A stretch of 23,559 nt of DNA from a virus. The notes under the pieces are model-generated. The model saw only the letters and a program-made list of their open reading frames with translations, had not been told where the DNA came from and searched no databases. The position numbers and the translations under genes are program-made. The stretch is from positions 1 to 23,559 of IMG/VR virus record IMGVR_UViG_3300013127_000032, one strand, 5' to 3'. Positions within the stretch are counted from its first letter, which is position 1, and each line of letters starts with the position of its first letter. Shown here one piece after another: positions 10,732 to 16,841 of this stretch.

Positions 10732-10735
10732 TACC

Positions 10736-10743
10736 TATAAATA
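10736..10743 (+). promoter_or_regulatory. T4-type late promoter (TATAAATA), rightward
   Basis: An exact match to the T4 late consensus lies 31 nt before the ATG of the plus-strand 238-aa gene. It faces away from a second exact copy at 10765-10772 on the other strand. Confidence 0.75.
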
Positions 10744-10764
10744 CTGAGACACCGTTCTTCTTTG

Positions 10765-10772
10765 TATTTATA
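10765..10772 (-). promoter_or_regulatory. T4-type late promoter (TATAAATA), leftward
   Basis: An exact match to the T4 late consensus on the minus strand, 33 nt before the ATG of the 1808-aa fibre gene. It lies immediately before the start codon of the divergent 238-aa gene, so the two transcripts initiate between the two elements. Confidence 0.75.
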
Positions 10773-10774
10773 CT

Positions 10775-11491
10775 ATGGCAAGTGGTCCAAAAACAAAATA
10801 TTTAATTTCAACTTATAAAAAATCAATTGAACAGGATAACAAGCAAAAAGAACAACTACTGCAAGCATTATCTGGAATTGAAGTAAGAACTGCTGACGAT
10901 AGTGCTCCAGAATATGTTATTGAAGGATTAGACACTAGAATAGATGCTTACAATCCAGCTACAAGAGGATTAGATAAAAGAGTTCTTGAACTGAACCAAC
11001 AAATTAGATCCCAACAAAACTTAGTTTTAGCTCTTGGTCAAGAAGCAAATACCTTTGAATGTGTCGGTATTGGTGCTAGTATACGATCAGTTGTTGGAGA
11101 TGAGGCAATATTATATTCCTGGGCATTTTCTGGTAATAATCCTTTTGTTGAAAGTAATCAAGTTTTATCTTCTTCCAATATCGGTGTCGGAACATATACA
11201 GGAATAACAACTGTAAGTCTTGGGACTTACATAGAATTTGATGCAATAGGAATTTGTGCTGAATATGCAAATTCAATCACAACAATTCTAAGTGGATTGA
11301 GTACGTTAAGATCTGAAAGAGATGGTATTATTATTCAACTCAATTTTATAAAAGAAGCTAGATCTGTTTTGCAACTTCAAAGATATGGATATACAAATTT
11401 ACAGGATCAAATAAATTCTGAGATACAAAAAAAGAACACTATAATTAGTGTTCTTGAAAATCCAATTAATCAGCAATATTTTGAAGAATGA
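10775..11491 (+). CDS. Plus-strand coiled-coil protein, unknown function (238 aa)
   Basis: This is one of only two plus-strand genes in the window. Residues 8-35 (YKKSIEQDNKQKEQLLQALS) and about 63-92 are charged helices with coiled-coil spacing. Residues 95-160 are Gly/Ser/Thr-rich and beta-like (NIGVGTYTGITTVSLGTY). Residues 165-230 are again helical (RSERDGIIIQLNFIKEARS). There is no signal peptide or clear membrane segment. It has its own TATAAATA late promoter, so it is probably made late with the fibre genes, and may be a virion or fibre-assembly protein; that is inference. No strong Shine-Dalgarno is visible before the ATG. Its stop lies 3 nt from the stop of the convergent 294-aa gene. 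I do not recognise the family. Confidence 0.75.
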   Translation: MASGPKTKYLISTYKKSIEQDNKQKEQLLQALSGIEVRTADDSAPEYVIEGLDTRIDAYNPATRGLDKRVLELNQQIRSQQNLVLALGQEANTFECVGIGASIRSVVGDEAILYSWAFSGNNPFVESNQVLSSSNIGVGTYTGITTVSLGTYIEFDAIGICAEYANSITTILSGLSTLRSERDGIIIQLNFIKEARSVLQLQRYGYTNLQDQINSEIQKKNTIISVLENPINQQYFEE

Positions 11492-11504
11492 TTGTTATAC
11501 AATC
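11490..11504. other. Perfect inverted repeat spanning two convergent stop codons
   Basis: GATTGT-TAT-ACAATC is a 6-bp perfect palindrome with a 3-nt loop. It overlaps the TGA of the 238-aa gene and contains part of the TAA of the convergent 294-aa gene. The stem is AT-rich and has no flanking U-run, so a terminator role is possible but weakly supported. Confidence 0.35.
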
Positions 11505-12379
11505 TGTTTAGAACTAGAAGTATAAACTTTACCAGAACTTAGAACTTTATAATTCCATTCCCAATCTGGACTTCCACTTGAATAAATTTCTACTATTTCT
11601 ACGTCAGAAGCAAGGGAATTAACTTCTACATATTTTTTCGCATCATCTAATGTATAAAGATATAGTGTTTTATCACTAGTACCCTCATTAAAGGTATTAT
11701 CTGTATCCATCCATGTAATACTACCGCTTGGAGTTTTTTTTAGGAAACAATAGTAAACGTATACTGGAATTCCTAAATCTCCAAAAGCACATTTTTTGAT
11801 ATCAACGTCTGTTCTTAACGAACAAACTTCTCCTTCAGGCGTGTAAATTGCGCCAGAATTTGATTTATACCAGAAATAATAATTTGGGGGACCAAAGTCA
11901 TAAAATTCAAATACAGATGCTCCAATCGGGGCATTTTCAATTTTAGAAAGAAATTCTTCAGCTTCAGATTTATCTACAAATGAAGTTTTTTCTCCAAATG
12001 GGATTTCGCTTGTAAAAATACCATCTTCATTACACCAAGATACCTCAAAAGGAAGACAAATTTTTCCAATCTTATAAAAAATTCTTTTATAAAGAGGATG
12101 TTTTAGATCAGAAATTTCCATTAACTTACATCTTTCATTATATGGAAAGGGTAAATTTTTTATTACTTTTTCTGCTTCCGATTTACTAGAAAAATGATAA
12201 ACCTCTTCAGGTGTACAATTTGAAATAAAAGCAAAATCTGTAGATTCGGAATCAAACGAATCTATATTTGTTTGCCCTTCAGCACCAACTCCAGGACTAG
12301 ACATATTGTTATCGGATAGATAATATAAATTGCCCAAAAAAGTTTTTGTATAAATTCGATAAAAAGAGTTTGAATTCAT
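11495..12379 (-). CDS. Three-repeat protein of unknown function (294 aa)
   Basis: No known family is recognised. The protein contains three related units. Unit 1 (about 61-91) has YHFSSKSEAEKVIKNLPF. Unit 2 (about 132-180) has SFVDKSEAEEFLSKIENA, then FEFYDFGPPNYYFWY and SGAIYTPEG. Unit 3 (about 240-290) has YLYTLDDAKKYVEVNSLA, then EIYSSGSPDWEWNYKVLSSG and KVYTSSS. Each unit is an alpha segment followed by aromatic-rich beta strands, as in small alpha/beta domains or ligand-binding repeats. It has no signal peptide. The start is the first in-frame ATG; a TATAAT lies 18 nt upstream. It sits between the tRNA cluster and a convergent late gene, so its time of expression is unclear. Cys is more frequent here than in the fibre proteins. 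Confidence 0.75.
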   Translation of the reverse strand: MNSNSFYRIYTKTFLGNLYYLSDNNMSSPGVGAEGQTNIDSFDSESTDFAFISNCTPEEVYHFSSKSEAEKVIKNLPFPYNERCKLMEISDLKHPLYKRIFYKIGKICLPFEVSWCNEDGIFTSEIPFGEKTSFVDKSEAEEFLSKIENAPIGASVFEFYDFGPPNYYFWYKSNSGAIYTPEGEVCSLRTDVDIKKCAFGDLGIPVYVYYCFLKKTPSGSITWMDTDNTFNEGTSDKTLYLYTLDDAKKYVEVNSLASDVEIVEIYSSGSPDWEWNYKVLSSGKVYTSSSKQIV

Positions 12380-12397: not shown

Positions 12398-12425
12398 ATT
12401 ATATAGGAACGATTATATAGGAACG
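12398..12425 (-). repeat. 14-bp perfect tandem repeat of the tRNA-Leu 3' end
   Basis: Two adjacent identical 14-mers (12398-12411 and 12412-12425). Read on the minus strand each is CGTTCCTATATAAT: the 3' acceptor strand and discriminator base of tRNA-Leu plus TATAAT. The copy at 12412-12425 belongs to the tRNA; the other is an extra copy downstream of it and upstream of the 294-aa gene. Confidence 0.95.
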
Positions 12426-12502
12426 GTCGGAATTGAACCGACAAGAACTTTACGTTCGGCAGATTTTAAGTCTGCTGTGTTTACCAATTTCACCACGCTC
12501 CC
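12418..12502 (-). tRNA. tRNA-Leu (anticodon UAA)
   Basis: A class II tRNA read on the minus strand. The acceptor GGGAGCG pairs with CGTTCCT (G1-U72 and one internal G-U wobble) and the discriminator is A. The anticodon stem GCAGA/TCTGC encloses CTTAAAA, giving anticodon UAA for Leu UUA. A long variable arm follows. The T arm is GTCGG-TTCAATT-CCGAC. CCA is not encoded. The 5' end is 4 nt from the 3' end of tRNA-Ile(GAU), implying processing from a shared precursor. UUA is a common codon in AT-rich phage genes. Confidence 0.93.
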
Positions 12503-12506
12503 AAGG

Positions 12507-12579
12507 TGGGAAATGGTGGATTTGAACCACCGACCTATCGGTTATCAACCGATTGCTCTAACCGCTGAGCTAATCTCCC
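12507..12579 (-). tRNA. tRNA-Ile (anticodon GAU)
   Basis: Acceptor GGGAGAT pairs with ATTTCCC and the discriminator is A. The D stem is GCTC/GAGC. The anticodon stem ATCGG/CCGAT encloses TTGATAA, giving anticodon GAU, which reads AUC and AUU. The T arm is GGTGG-TTCAAAT-CCACC. The 5' end is fixed by the nine bases required before GCTC, so the extra G at 12580 is left in the spacer. It lies 4 nt from tRNA-Leu and 3 nt from tRNA-Ile(UAU). Confidence 0.93.
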
Positions 12580-12582
12580 CAG

Positions 12583-12654
12583 TAGGACCGCCGAGAATTG
12601 AACTCGGTTCTGCCGCTTATAAGGCGACGGCTTTAACCAATAAGCAACGGTCCC
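12583..12654 (-). tRNA. tRNA-Ile (anticodon UAU)
   Basis: Acceptor GGGACCG pairs with CGGTCCT (G1-U72 wobble) and the discriminator is A. The D stem is GCTT/AAGC. The anticodon stem GTCGC/GCGGC (one U-G pair) encloses the 7-nt loop CTTATAA, placing UAU at positions 34-36. UAU reads the Ile codon AUA directly. The T arm is CCGAG-TTCAATT-CTCGG. Its 5' end lies 5 nt after the stop codon of the zinc-finger gene, so it is probably on the same transcript. Confidence 0.88.
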
Positions 12655-12659
12655 ACAAG

Positions 12660-12803
12660 TTATTGCTTAGGTTTTTTCTTAGAATTTTTCTTTGGATTAA
12701 ATTTAAATTTGGTATCTGCTTCTTGGCATCTTTTGATGTGTGACCCAAAATTAATTTTACCATTGCATAGATGTCCGCACATGGGGCATCTAATCTGCGA
12801 CAT
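12660..12803 (-). CDS. Small C2HC zinc-finger protein (47 aa)
   Basis: A 47-residue frame starting MSQIRCPMCGHLCNG. Four ligands are visible: C6-x2-C9-x12-H22-x3-C26, the spacing of a C2HC finger (CPxCG...H...C). A Lys-rich tail follows (residues 32-47, 9 Lys), suitable for nucleic-acid contact. The start overlaps the end of the 63-aa gene by 14 nt, and AAAAGGAG lies 12 nt before the ATG inside that gene. The stop is 5 nt from tRNA-Ile(UAU). The likely role is a small DNA- or RNA-binding regulator or host-takeover factor; the target is unknown. The intact zinc-ligand pattern and the Shine-Dalgarno argue that it is real despite its size. Confidence 0.7.
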   Translation of the reverse strand: MSQIRCPMCGHLCNGKINFGSHIKRCQEADTKFKFNPKKNSKKKPKQ

Positions 12804-12981
12804 ACTCGATACGTACTCCTTTTGAATGTGACTTAGTAAATTCTAGCACACCCAAGAATTGATCTGGCGTTTCGCAATGCACTTCTTCATAAGACCCGTC
12901 AGTTCCGTGAAGATAAAACGTCCTATTACTAATATTTATTTTGACACAATCAATGTATTCGTCAGTCAAATGAAGATCCAT
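12790..12981 (-). CDS. Small hypothetical protein of the early-type island (63 aa)
   Basis: The sequence (MDLHLTDEYIDCVKINIS, then TFYLHGTDGSYEEVHCETPDQ and FLGVLEFTKSH) reads as a small soluble alpha/beta protein. It resembles short conserved hypotheticals of T4-like cyanophages, and its function is not known. A sigma70-like promoter (TTGACA-N17-TATGAT) ends 21 nt before the ATG, leaving a leader of only about 15 nt with no obvious Shine-Dalgarno, so initiation may be nearly leaderless. It overlaps the zinc-finger gene downstream. Early expression is inferred from the promoter. Confidence 0.7.
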   Translation of the reverse strand: MDLHLTDEYIDCVKINISNRTFYLHGTDGSYEEVHCETPDQFLGVLEFTKSHSKGVRIEYVAD

Positions 12982-13002
12982 AATTTATGTGTATCAAATT
13001 CC

Positions 13003-13031
13003 ATCATAGCACGAAGATTAAGATCTGTCAA
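13003..13031 (-). promoter_or_regulatory. Sigma70-type promoter TTGACA-N17-TATGAT
   Basis: The -35 is an exact TTGACA (13026-13031), the spacer is 17 nt, and the -10 TATGAT (13003-13008) has one mismatch. The -35 lies in the last codons of the 77-aa gene and the stop codon falls within the spacer. The predicted start is near 12996, just before the 63-aa gene, the zinc finger and the tRNAs. Confidence 0.75.
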
Positions 13032-13251
13032 GGGGTTGTGCTTGAACTGAATAATAGGCATCAATAGCACCACCACTAGCGTTTCTAACTACAACTCTTG
13101 TTCCCCATTCTATTCGATCAACAAACAATTCTTGATAAAATCTACTAGGTGTCAATTGTACTGAAATTGTTTCTTGCCTAATATCTCCCCTCCATTGTTC
13201 AGGAAGTTCGATAATTCCATCTACGGTAACTCTTCCAGATGTCAAATACAT
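13018..13251 (-). CDS. Hypothetical 77-aa protein
   Basis: A small beta-rich protein: MYLTSGRVTVDGIIELPEQW, DIRQETISVQLTPSRFYQEL, then IEWGTRVVVRNASGG. No family is recognised. The beta-rich, Trp/Arg/Gly-containing sequence would suit a small virion or baseplate component, and it follows the S74-domain gene by 27 nt. However, a near-consensus sigma70 promoter sits immediately upstream, which suggests early or host-RNA-polymerase expression, with or without late read-through. The start at 13251 is the first ATG after that promoter; the spacing from GATGAG is not ideal. Its last codons hold the -35 element of the next promoter. Confidence 0.65.
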   Translation of the reverse strand: MYLTSGRVTVDGIIELPEQWRGDIRQETISVQLTPSRFYQELFVDRIEWGTRVVVRNASGGAIDAYYSVQAQPLDRS

Positions 13252-13272
13252 AAAATCAACTCATCTTCAAAA

Positions 13273-13301
13273 ATTATATCATGTCTTTTCAAGTTCGTCA
13301 A
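13273..13301 (-). promoter_or_regulatory. Sigma70-type promoter TTGACG-N17-TATAAT
   Basis: The -35 TTGACG (13296-13301) has one mismatch, the spacer is 17 nt, and the -10 TATAAT (13273-13278) is exact. The -10 starts directly after the stop codon of the S74-domain gene. The predicted start is near 13266, about 15 nt before the 77-aa gene. Confidence 0.75.
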
Positions 13302-14124
13302 GTCTTTTTTTCAAATCTTCAATTTGCTTTTGCTGCTCCTTCATACCCTCAACTAAAAGTGCTACAAGGTTTTCATATTTAACACCCTTGATACCAATTC
13401 TATTGCCATCATTATTGTCAATGGTAGTGTTGATAATAACTTCTGGAACAATCTTTTCAACTTCTTGAGCAATAAACCCAACATTTACTCCTGGATGATT
13501 ACGTTTTTGTTCCCAATGTGTCCACTCAAAAGTTACTCCTTGAAGTTCTAAAATTTTAGAAAGAGCACTTTTAATTGGTTTAATATCAGTTTTCAATCTA
13601 GCATCAGAATGGGTATGTAAAAATGCAAGTGGTGTTCCATTATGTTTCCAATATCCATAAAGATCACCATCTGGTGATGATAGATTTTGATCTATTGCTG
13701 CCGTCTGATTATTTGGTTCCGCAGCAGTTTTGCCTCCAACTTCAACGGCTGCACCAGTGCGATTGAACAATCCCATCATATTTTTTAGTCCAACTGCATT
13801 CCATAATCCAGTATTATTGGAAGTACCAAAAAAGTTACTCAACGCAAAGTTATTCATATAACCTATGTGCTGAGTTCCTGCCGTAACTTCTAATCCTAGA
13901 GTAGGAATTCCTGGACTAAATGGTGGAATTGCTGGTCCAATACTTACAACTGCACGAGAAAATCCTATATTTGTAGGAGCACCAAAGAATGCTGGTCCAA
14001 CACAAGACAATGTTCCAGCAAAAGGATTTTCTTTGTTTAACGTCAAAATAGATTGATCTAGTTTAACTGGTAATTCTGGACCAATATAGACTTTGCCTGC
14101 AGATAATTCTCCCCCAATTGCCAT
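13279..14124 (-). CDS. Baseplate/spike protein with C-terminal S74 chaperone domain (281 aa)
   Basis: Residues 1-170 are Gly/Pro-rich and beta-like (KVYIGPELPVKLDQS, GFSRAVVSIGPAIPPFSPG, NTGLWNAVGLKNMMGLFN) and probably form the trimeric body. Residues 173-281 are a peptidase S74 intramolecular chaperone: SDARLKTDIKPI with the expected Ser173/Lys178 dyad, then LQGVTFEW, VGFIAQEVEKIVPEV, KYENLVALLVEGMKEQQ and a terminal coiled coil. In characterised fibres and tailspikes this domain drives trimerisation and cuts itself off before the Ser, which here would leave a mature product of about 172 residues. The gene starts 1 nt after the stop of the beta-helical spike gene and ends the hub operon. 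That suggests a tail-tip or hub-associated part, although S74 is usually on fibres. Confidence 0.85.
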   Translation of the reverse strand: MAIGGELSAGKVYIGPELPVKLDQSILTLNKENPFAGTLSCVGPAFFGAPTNIGFSRAVVSIGPAIPPFSPGIPTLGLEVTAGTQHIGYMNNFALSNFFGTSNNTGLWNAVGLKNMMGLFNRTGAAVEVGGKTAAEPNNQTAAIDQNLSSPDGDLYGYWKHNGTPLAFLHTHSDARLKTDIKPIKSALSKILELQGVTFEWTHWEQKRNHPGVNVGFIAQEVEKIVPEVIINTTIDNNDGNRIGIKGVKYENLVALLVEGMKEQQKQIEDLKKRLDELEKT

Positions 14125-14668: not shown

Positions 14669-16629
14669 CTACTTATACAATTTACAACACGAATAACTTT
14701 TTCAGATGGAATGTCTACATTCAATTCACTTCTTCTACTATATCTTATAACTGGTCTAATGATAGCACCAATTCCAGTCGCACTATTTATTGATAAATTT
14801 GGGATCTTAGTTAGTCCAATAGTAGATGAGATAATATCTGCCCCAACGATTCTACCAGCATCATCTAATCGTGGTTTTAGAGTAATACTATTGTCATCAC
14901 TTTCAATTACATCACCAGAATTGTATCCCGTACCAGTATTAACAATTTGAACATCTTCAACATCTCCAACAACATCTTCACCTTCACTATCTGGTGTAGT
15001 ATCTGATGTTGGAATATATCCCCCACCAGGATTATCGACAACAATATTAGTTACCTGACCGTCCTCTACAATTGCTTGTCCTGTAGCACCATATCCATTA
15101 TCGCAAGCATCCATAAACTGAATATAAGGTTTTCCAGAATATCCAAAACCAAGATCAGTCATATTGACGCCAATAACCTGCCCAAGACTATTAACAACTG
15201 CTCTAGCTGCTGCTCCTGACCCACCACCACCAAAAATAAGAACATCTGGAGGTCCGCATGTTATTGTGTATGGATCACATCCATTAACTAATCCCTCAAT
15301 AATTTCATCGCCAACCTCATCTTTAGGAAACCATCCTTCAAGAGTATTTTGAGTGTCTTTACTCAAATTTCCAATATATCTAGAAAGACTTACTGATCTT
15401 TGAAAGTCTGCTGCTTCTTGTGGTGTAGGTCCAAAATTTACTGCCCAGTTATATGGTGTTGGCTCACAAACTTCTCCTTCACACTTTAAGAAATTTAATC
15501 CAATTTGAGTGTAGTTAATTGCCTGCGACATATATCCAATAAAATTTCCTACAGATCCTATAATTTGTTGGATAGCAGCCATTGCAGGACCAATTGCTTC
15601 TTGAATTTGATTGCTAATTTCAGAAATAAGACCAGCAATAAATTGTTCTGCTGCACATAGTGGGATATTGGTAATCTTACCAAGCATTTGTTGTAAGAAA
15701 TCTGAAATAAACTTTGTTAAACCTTTGATAATATTTTCGATCAAACAGAAAATAGTATCCATCGCCTTCTTAATTGCGATGTCTTTCATTAAACTATCAG
15801 GGAGCAAAAAGTTTAATAGATCTTTTACTCCATTAAAAATTTTCTGGAACATATATTTTCTTGCTAATCTAATCAGCTGAGAAAATGCTCCAGAAATTGA
15901 AGTTGCTGTCTGTCCGATTAAAGATGGTATATTTACGATTTTATTTAAAACTGGATCAATAAATTCACCCTGATATACTACCAATCCTTGAGTTATTTTT
16001 ATAAACGTTGCTAATGATCTTGCGACTTCCCACATGAAGCCTTTTCCACCTTTACATTTTTTAGCACGTCCAACAATTTTATCCTTCGCTTGATTATTTT
16101 GTTTTCCTTGAATACTTTCCCTTCCATCAGCAGTTTTACCGCTACCTGGTGTTCCATTTCCTGCTGGTGCTGATCCATCGGCAGGTCTTACTGCAGTAGA
16201 AAACTTTAATTGTTTATTAAAGTCAATTGGTGCAAACCCAGTTGTTCCCTTCTGTACTGCTGTTTGCCATGCAACAAGATTTTTTTCAGCTTGCCCACTA
16301 AATAGTGCTCCCATGATAATGGGTTGCTGCATATCATCACCATCTAAGAAAAATCCTAGAACAGTTTCCCCACCCTGTAAAGCAAAACTAGTACCACCAA
16401 AGTTTTTACCAGAACCAAGATTTGGTGGTACTAGAAAATGTGCCCAAGGCAATTCACTATCAGGAACTTCATTTGATGCTGGATGACGACCTAAGATCCT
16501 GACTTTTGCTCGATATCCATACTTAGTGCTGAATTCTCGCCAATTTGGATCAGCAGTTACCTGTCCGATGAACCAATGAAATCCATCTTCTCCGATAAAG
16601 TTGATCTTAGATAGGCGTTGCTCCAACAT
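14665..16629 (-). CDS. 5: gp5-like baseplate hub protein lacking the lysozyme domain (654 aa)
   Basis: Residues 17-112 form the gp5 OB-fold: FHWFIGQVTADPNW, YRAKVRILGRHP, LPWAHFLVPPN, GETVLGFFLDGDDMQQPIIMGALF. After a Gly/Pro linker (140-195), residues 200-385 are hydrophobic helices (SLIGQTATSISGAFSQLI, IFCLIENIIKGLTKF, AIQQIIGSVGNFIG). Residues 465-575 hold a Gly/Tyr repeat module (DLGFGYSGKP, PGGGYIP, GTGYNSGD). T4 gp5 (575 aa) has an internal lysozyme and a C-terminal needle. Neither is here: the needle is in the next gene, and lytic motifs are in the 557-aa protein. It overlaps its neighbours on both sides (TGATG and ATGA). It is expected to bind gp27 at the centre of the baseplate. Confidence 0.85.
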   Translation of the reverse strand: MLEQRLSKINFIGEDGFHWFIGQVTADPNWREFSTKYGYRAKVRILGRHPASNEVPDSELPWAHFLVPPNLGSGKNFGGTSFALQGGETVLGFFLDGDDMQQPIIMGALFSGQAEKNLVAWQTAVQKGTTGFAPIDFNKQLKFSTAVRPADGSAPAGNGTPGSGKTADGRESIQGKQNNQAKDKIVGRAKKCKGGKGFMWEVARSLATFIKITQGLVVYQGEFIDPVLNKIVNIPSLIGQTATSISGAFSQLIRLARKYMFQKIFNGVKDLLNFLLPDSLMKDIAIKKAMDTIFCLIENIIKGLTKFISDFLQQMLGKITNIPLCAAEQFIAGLISEISNQIQEAIGPAMAAIQQIIGSVGNFIGYMSQAINYTQIGLNFLKCEGEVCEPTPYNWAVNFGPTPQEAADFQRSVSLSRYIGNLSKDTQNTLEGWFPKDEVGDEIIEGLVNGCDPYTITCGPPDVLIFGGGGSGAAARAVVNSLGQVIGVNMTDLGFGYSGKPYIQFMDACDNGYGATGQAIVEDGQVTNIVVDNPGGGYIPTSDTTPDSEGEDVVGDVEDVQIVNTGTGYNSGDVIESDDNSITLKPRLDDAGRIVGADIISSTIGLTKIPNLSINSATGIGAIIRPVIRYSRRSELNVDIPSEKVIRVVNCISR

Positions 16630-16841
16630 CAGTTTTCGTAAATTCTACACTCAAGTGCATTAGGATTTTTATCACAATAGATTTCAAATGGCGTTGGATC
16701 ATGATGATCTTCAGGATGATTTGCCTGATAAATTTTTAAGTCTTCTAGTTCGTGTTCTAAAAAACGACGACGTTGTGAAGAAATACCAGGATCATAAAGA
16801 TCTGTGGTATACTTTTCGATATGGTCTTCAATAGTTCTCAT
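16629..16841 (-). CDS. Small acidic/helical protein between gp27 and gp5 (70 aa)
   Basis: A charged helical protein (MRTIEDHIEKYTTDLYDPG, SQRRRFLEHELEDLKIYQ) ending in FEIYCDKNPNALECRIYEN. It overlaps gp27 by ATGA and gp5 by TGATG, so it is locked into the hub operon. No catalytic motif is visible. Two Cys near the C-terminus could form a disulphide or bind metal. Position and coupling suggest a hub-assembly chaperone or an accessory subunit, but this is inference; the family function is unknown to me. Confidence 0.75.
   Translation of the reverse strand: MRTIEDHIEKYTTDLYDPGISSQRRRFLEHELEDLKIYQANHPEDHHDPTPFEIYCDKNPNALECRIYEN

Follow-up and report, generated by a model that had tools for sequence, protein, structure and literature searches.

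A probable sigma70-type promoter conserved at the entrance of the gp5-proximal tRNA island of T4-like cyanophages

The vicinity of gp5, with its tRNA genes, has been described as a hot spot in the genomes of T4-like cyanophages (Sullivan et al. 2010, PMC3037559). Cyanomyoviruses have no homologues of the T4 genes alt, modA, motA and asiA and are believed to begin early transcription at sigma70-like promoters with the unmodified polymerase of the host, sites of this kind having been reported before early-gene homologues in S-PM2 and Syn9, and their late element is NATAAATA (PMC2984593). Early, middle and late classes of genes have been distinguished in P-HM2, the auxiliary genes belonging to the middle class (PMC5082946).

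The DNA analyzed here (hereafter the window) is a linear IMG/VR virus fragment of 23.6 kb with 36% GC, whose genes make up the tail and baseplate block of a T4-like cyanophage, including a gp5-type hub and lysozyme gene (phrog_1922), a CP12 gene, a tail protein tipped with an S74 domain and genes for very long fibre-like proteins. The CP12 gene, encoding a regulator of carbon metabolism (16629-16841), is flanked by two tail genes, as it is in cultured Kyanoviridae. A relative of 172 kb (L029), the hub of which is 75% identical to that of the window, carries two Photo_RC genes (PF00124, psbA/psbD family), and these genes together with the CP12 gene of the window indicate that the lineage very probably infects cyanobacteria. 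Within the annotated phage collection the closest relative of the window is the single-cell virus AG-345-D19.

The island that concerns us here lies between the gp5 hub and its tail-associated genes on one side and the tail fibre genes on the other (CP12, gp5 hub, orf180 and the S74 protein upstream, a fibre-like protein of 1808 amino acids downstream), and comprises three tRNAs, a DUF7294 gene and a zinc-finger gene (Table 1). This locus is the known gp5/tRNA hot spot: as in the description of the latter (PMC3037559), tRNAs and small genes follow gp5 and its tail proteins and precede the tail fibres, with CP12 nearby. The order hub, CP12, gp5, tail proteins, small genes and tRNAs, fibres is common, with variations, to cultured Kyanoviridae, and since the cassette stands at an already described hot spot it is no special feature of the window phage. 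The difference resides in the content: the window lineage has DUF7294, three tRNAs and the zinc-finger gene, and the window lacks cpeT, endonuclease V and 2OG oxygenase. Beyond the island, the stretch that separates the 1808-aa gene from the 238-aa gene (10732-10774) holds divergent T4-type late elements (TATAAATA) on both strands.

Table 1. Features of the island and its surroundings (window positions, except for the last line).
Feature	Position	Strand	Remarks
281-aa tail protein	13279..14124	-	S74 intramolecular chaperone tip (PF13884)
P1	13273..13301	-	TTGACG-17-TATAAT, extended -10, 11/12; end of S74 gene; possible promoter
77-aa ORF	13018..13251	-	detached C-terminal module of tail protein; not an island member
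P2	13003..13031	-	TTGACA-17-TATGAT, extended -10 (TGC), 11/12; probable main promoter of tRNA island (sigma70-type)
DUF7294 gene, 63 aa	12790..12981	-	PF23966, phrog_662; first island gene; dN/dS 0.10-0.17
Zinc-finger-like gene, 47 aa	12660..12803	-	C-x2-C...H-x3-C; overlaps DUF7294 gene; dN/dS 0.01-0.09
tRNA-Ile (anticodon UAU)	12582..12654	-	kept in relatives
tRNA-Ile (anticodon GAU)	12505..12579	-	window and L005 only
tRNA-Leu (anticodon UAA)	12417..12503	-	kept in relatives
orf294	11495..12379	-	probably reached by P2 transcript
Intrinsic terminator	11432..11455	-	10-bp stem then T run, after orf294; likely island transcript end
Syn9 TGCTATAAT	NC_008296.2, just after 18,631		directly after gp5 stop

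A preliminary description of this DNA had reported two near-consensus promoters with 17-nt spacers, their -35 boxes embedded in terminal Leu-Asp codons and their -10 boxes at or just past the stop, and both parts of this account held. The sites, P1 and P2, are the only 11/12 matches among 62 promoter-like matches between 5 and 20 kb of the window, and in both of them TGn precedes the -10. In the codon context of P1, CTT GAC GAA CTT GAA AAG ACA TGA is followed directly by TATAAT; that of P2 reads CTT GAC AGA TCT TAA, with the -10 nine bases past the stop. Sites with at least 11/12 matches, a 17-nt spacer and TG number two on the minus strand and none on the plus strand of the whole window, against a mean of 0.013 expected by chance (150 first-order Markov sequences), so that both present -35 and -10 hexamers within the 16-18 nt spacing of sigma70-type promoters beyond chance expectation. 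When the demands for TG and a fixed spacer are dropped, the expectation for at least 11/12 rises to 0.83 in the window, and the surprise therefore depends on the complete element.

Comparison with relatives separated the two sites. In nine IMG/VR relatives (L005-L013), retrieved via the 77-aa protein, the TTGACA of P2 and the TGC before its -10 are invariant and the -10 is TATGAT in all except L010 (TAGGAT), the spacer being strongly divergent; counting L029, where the same P2-type element occurs, each of the ten IMG/VR relatives compared retains P2. In the window the -35 hexamer falls in Leu-Asp codons and its first base is 13 nt upstream of where the stop codon ends; in L006-L013, by contrast, the last residues of the upstream protein are VEA or VEG, and the hexamer contains its TGA stop. 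Because these protein ends differ, the amino acids do not maintain the hexamer, and its retention despite the changed coding meaning points to selection at the level of DNA. The Leu-Asp embedding, which we weighed as a possible signature and rejected, proved incidental, as the -35 of most relatives overlaps a TGA stop and that of another a TAG.

P1 comes after a swapped S74 fibre tip and before the 77-aa ORF. In the alignment this ORF finds its counterpart at residues about 201-270 of one protein of 278 amino acids in L007-L029, and it matches residues 162-232 of phrog_17490; this 278-aa protein corresponds to the N-terminal half of the 281-aa protein of the window plus the 77-aa sequence, and in the window and L005 the S74 tip intervenes and leaves the 77-aa module as a separate ORF. 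We observe here an exchange of tail-protein tips (window 13018-14124; L005, L007, L029, L040) in which the old C-terminus has given way to an S74 chaperone tip. Since one protein covers the 77-aa sequence in the relatives, the ORF is tail-derived and lies outside the island; its earlier inclusion in the cassette is not borne out, and we rejected it as an independent early gene. The idea that P1 generally accompanies S74 tips was likewise rejected, P1 being absent from about 20 other S74 gene ends, and a DNA search with the S74 end gave a sole, chance-looking match in a Thermus phage. Of the two sigma70 promoters that had been placed before the cassette, P2 stands as a conserved boundary element and P1 does not, because it is kept in one close relative only (L005) and precedes the tail-derived ORF. 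P1 is possibly a weaker second promoter of recent origin. That it is also functional, having been gained with the swapped S74 tip so as to give the detached module a transcript of its own, is an explanation to which we give almost as much credit as to its opposite: P1 persists in L005 despite several differences in the spacer, with TG intact and the -10 changed from TATAAT to TATGAT, and the ORF behind it is under purifying selection (dN/dS 0.17), but the site occurs in two sequences only, with 84-88% protein identity, its -35 is constrained by coding, and L040, another S74-plus-77-aa arrangement, lacks it.

As for the transcript starting at P2, the preliminary description had it that the two sites precede only the 77-aa, 63-aa and zinc-finger genes and the tRNAs, which is too narrow, orf294 following on the same strand before any terminator and without a late element that could clearly be assigned to it. 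In most relatives the homologue of orf294 is headed by a CTAAATA-type late element that is absent from the window and L005, and for this reason orf294 may join the P2 transcript here. The terminator after orf294 is kept in the 6/6 relatives inspected, with paired changes in the stem. Judging from this arrangement, the operon DUF7294, zinc finger, tRNA-Ile(UAU), tRNA-Ile(GAU), tRNA-Leu(UAA) probably continues through orf294 to the conserved terminator. The 47-aa zinc-finger-like gene has AG-345-D19 as its sole carrier in the phage collection. At the 3' end of tRNA-Leu (12398-12425) ATTATATAGGAACG stands as two tandem copies of 14 nt, a duplication of the 3' flank of the tRNA that the aligned relatives do not show.

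The DUF7294 profile search gave no relatives beyond the contigs already found, and for the wider comparison we therefore turned to annotated phage genomes. The region scanned ran from 60 nt upstream of the last tail gene's end to 150 nt downstream of it, and the score counted hexamer matches plus TG. The promoter-like element recurs at the same boundary: a score of at least 11 was reached in 12 of 18 diverse cyanophage lineages versus 6 of 240 (2.5%) other ORF ends of the same loci, with a nominal binomial value of 1e-15 that overstates the independence of the lineages because they are related. Syn9 and S-SCSM1 present a perfect 12/12 element with TGC, S-CAM3 12/12 without TG, S-ShM2, Syn33, S-RIM2, L029 and AG-345-D19 11/12 with TG, and S-PM2 and Syn1 11/12. 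The score at the first boundary was below 11 in S-CAM9, P-HM2, S-MbCM7, P-TIM40, S-H9-2 and Sf-CH3, P-HM2 having an 11-scoring site one gene further downstream, and none of the six phages without tRNAs at the locus reached 11. In Syn9, S-SCSM1, S-ShM2, L029 and the L006-L013 group the -35 reads T-TGA-CA, its TGA being the stop of the tail gene, an overlap found at 1 of the 240 other ORF ends; in AG-345-D19 the -35 begins with a TAG stop. The island promoters of Syn9 and S-SCSM1 are thus like P2 in boundary and TGC and unlike it in being perfect, in holding the TGA within the -35 where that of the window starts 13 nt upstream of the stop codon's end, and in the genes downstream. The arrangement is of a known kind and here well supported, and this promoter-like sequence is shown to recur at its boundary across lineages.

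The same type of element also marks other pre-late genes in the 172-kb relative, where TTGACA-N17-TATNAT occurs 8 times (the reversed-pattern control giving 0), the genes behind it including the gp32 single-strand-binding protein, a high-light-inducible protein (hli), MazG and the DUF7294 of the island. P2 resembles in this the sigma70-type early promoters of cyanomyoviruses (PMC2984593), which are TTGACA-17-TATAAT-like and read by the unmodified host polymerase, and departs from them in its place inside the late structural block, where a tail gene's 3' end or stop codon shares bases with the -35. At other strict-motif sites too the -35 overlaps the end of the upstream gene, as with the long ORF that precedes hli and the ORF that precedes gp32, so that overlaps of this sort are ordinary genome compaction. 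A search of this genome for AsiA (PF09010) gave no match, the control search being equally silent. At 85018-85046 of the contig (L108) a TTGACA-17-TATAAT carries the late element GATAAATA inside its spacer, which suggests overlapping early and late promoters.

Late elements had been reported to lie before gene blocks elsewhere and not at the island. This is true of seven blocks, with NATAAATA or CTAAATA 28-42 nt upstream of the starts at 975, 2272, 5272, 10731, 10775, 22202 and 23092 and none upstream of the island genes in the window, and needs correction for a late-like AATAAATA on the minus strand at 12940, inside the 63-aa DUF7294 gene and shared with the aligned relatives. The AUA codon in AATAAATA would be read by the island's own tRNA-Ile(UAU). 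In S-PM2, S-H9-2, Syn1 and Sf-CH3 a CTAAATA-type element follows about 60 nt after the -35, and the cassette may for this reason be transcribed in both phases. According to such a reading, which we regard as a tentative but serious alternative, the sigma70 promoter would serve the island early, and later on a late element, or else the tail operon by read-through, would keep it transcribed, P2 supplementing late transcription rather than imposing purely early control. The elements of those four phages and the AATAAATA of the window speak for it, as do a terminator scan showing none convincing between the hub genes and the island and the paired early and late promoters described for cyanomyoviruses (PMC2984593); against it, AATAAATA doubles as the coding sequence for Ile-Asn-Ile of a conserved protein, and the boundary regions of Syn9, S-SCSM1, S-ShM2, Syn33, S-RIM2 and AG-345-D19 have no late-like element.

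That P1 and P2 arose by chance from coding sequence, owing to Leu-Asp codons at gene ends, with the island co-transcribed late with the tail genes, is highly improbable: LDE codons at S74 C-termini do yield TTGACG without a -10 in L053 and L060, so that the -35 of P1 can come from coding, and relaxed matches are expected at the frequency given above, but P2 is kept in relatives under another reading context and spacer and stands at the orthologous boundary in distant genera, which already contradicts chance in its case.

We consequently favour, with considerable confidence, the view that P2 is a true sigma70-type promoter from which the unmodified RNA polymerase of the host would transcribe the island operon in the early or middle phase; its activity and timing, the extent of the operon and its transcript ends, and the role of the tRNAs are all things that we infer from sequence. 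The polymerase would start at P2, pass through DUF7294, the zinc-finger protein, tRNA-Ile-UAU, tRNA-Ile-GAU, tRNA-Leu-UAA and probably orf294, and stop at the terminator, so that a translation-support cassette inside the gp5-to-tail-fibre block would be transcribed before gp55-type late promoters fire on the surrounding tail genes, with a possible later contribution from late read-through of the hub operon. Given a host-style promoter at the same place in related viruses, the products of the island are probably made before the tail proteins. The claim of early expression of a cassette inside late genes by the unmodified host polymerase is upheld in part: a sigma70-type promoter, conserved at this boundary across T4-like cyanophages, precedes a cassette of tRNAs and small genes among late tail genes, and use of the unmodified polymerase fits what is described for cyanomyoviruses (PMC2984593), but "early" may be too strong because the auxiliary genes of P-HM2 are of the middle class (PMC5082946).

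Whether the boundary is more than a recurrent promoter position leads to a speculative proposal, which we think probably overreaches: the end of the last gene of the gp5 block would be, across T4-like cyanophages, a fixed landing pad with a sigma70 promoter whose -35 doubles as the stop of the tail gene, the tRNA and auxiliary cassettes being swapped behind it and hence placed at once under early host transcription. Were it true, the repeated appearance of tRNA and auxiliary genes beside gp5 would be explained, and so would the timely expression of newly acquired genes. In more immediate terms, the conservation of P2 would supply a rule, legible in the sequence, by which a cassette for early or middle expression can be lodged among the late structural genes of a cyanophage, and from it exact transcript starts can be predicted for Syn9, S-SCSM1 and other cultured phages.
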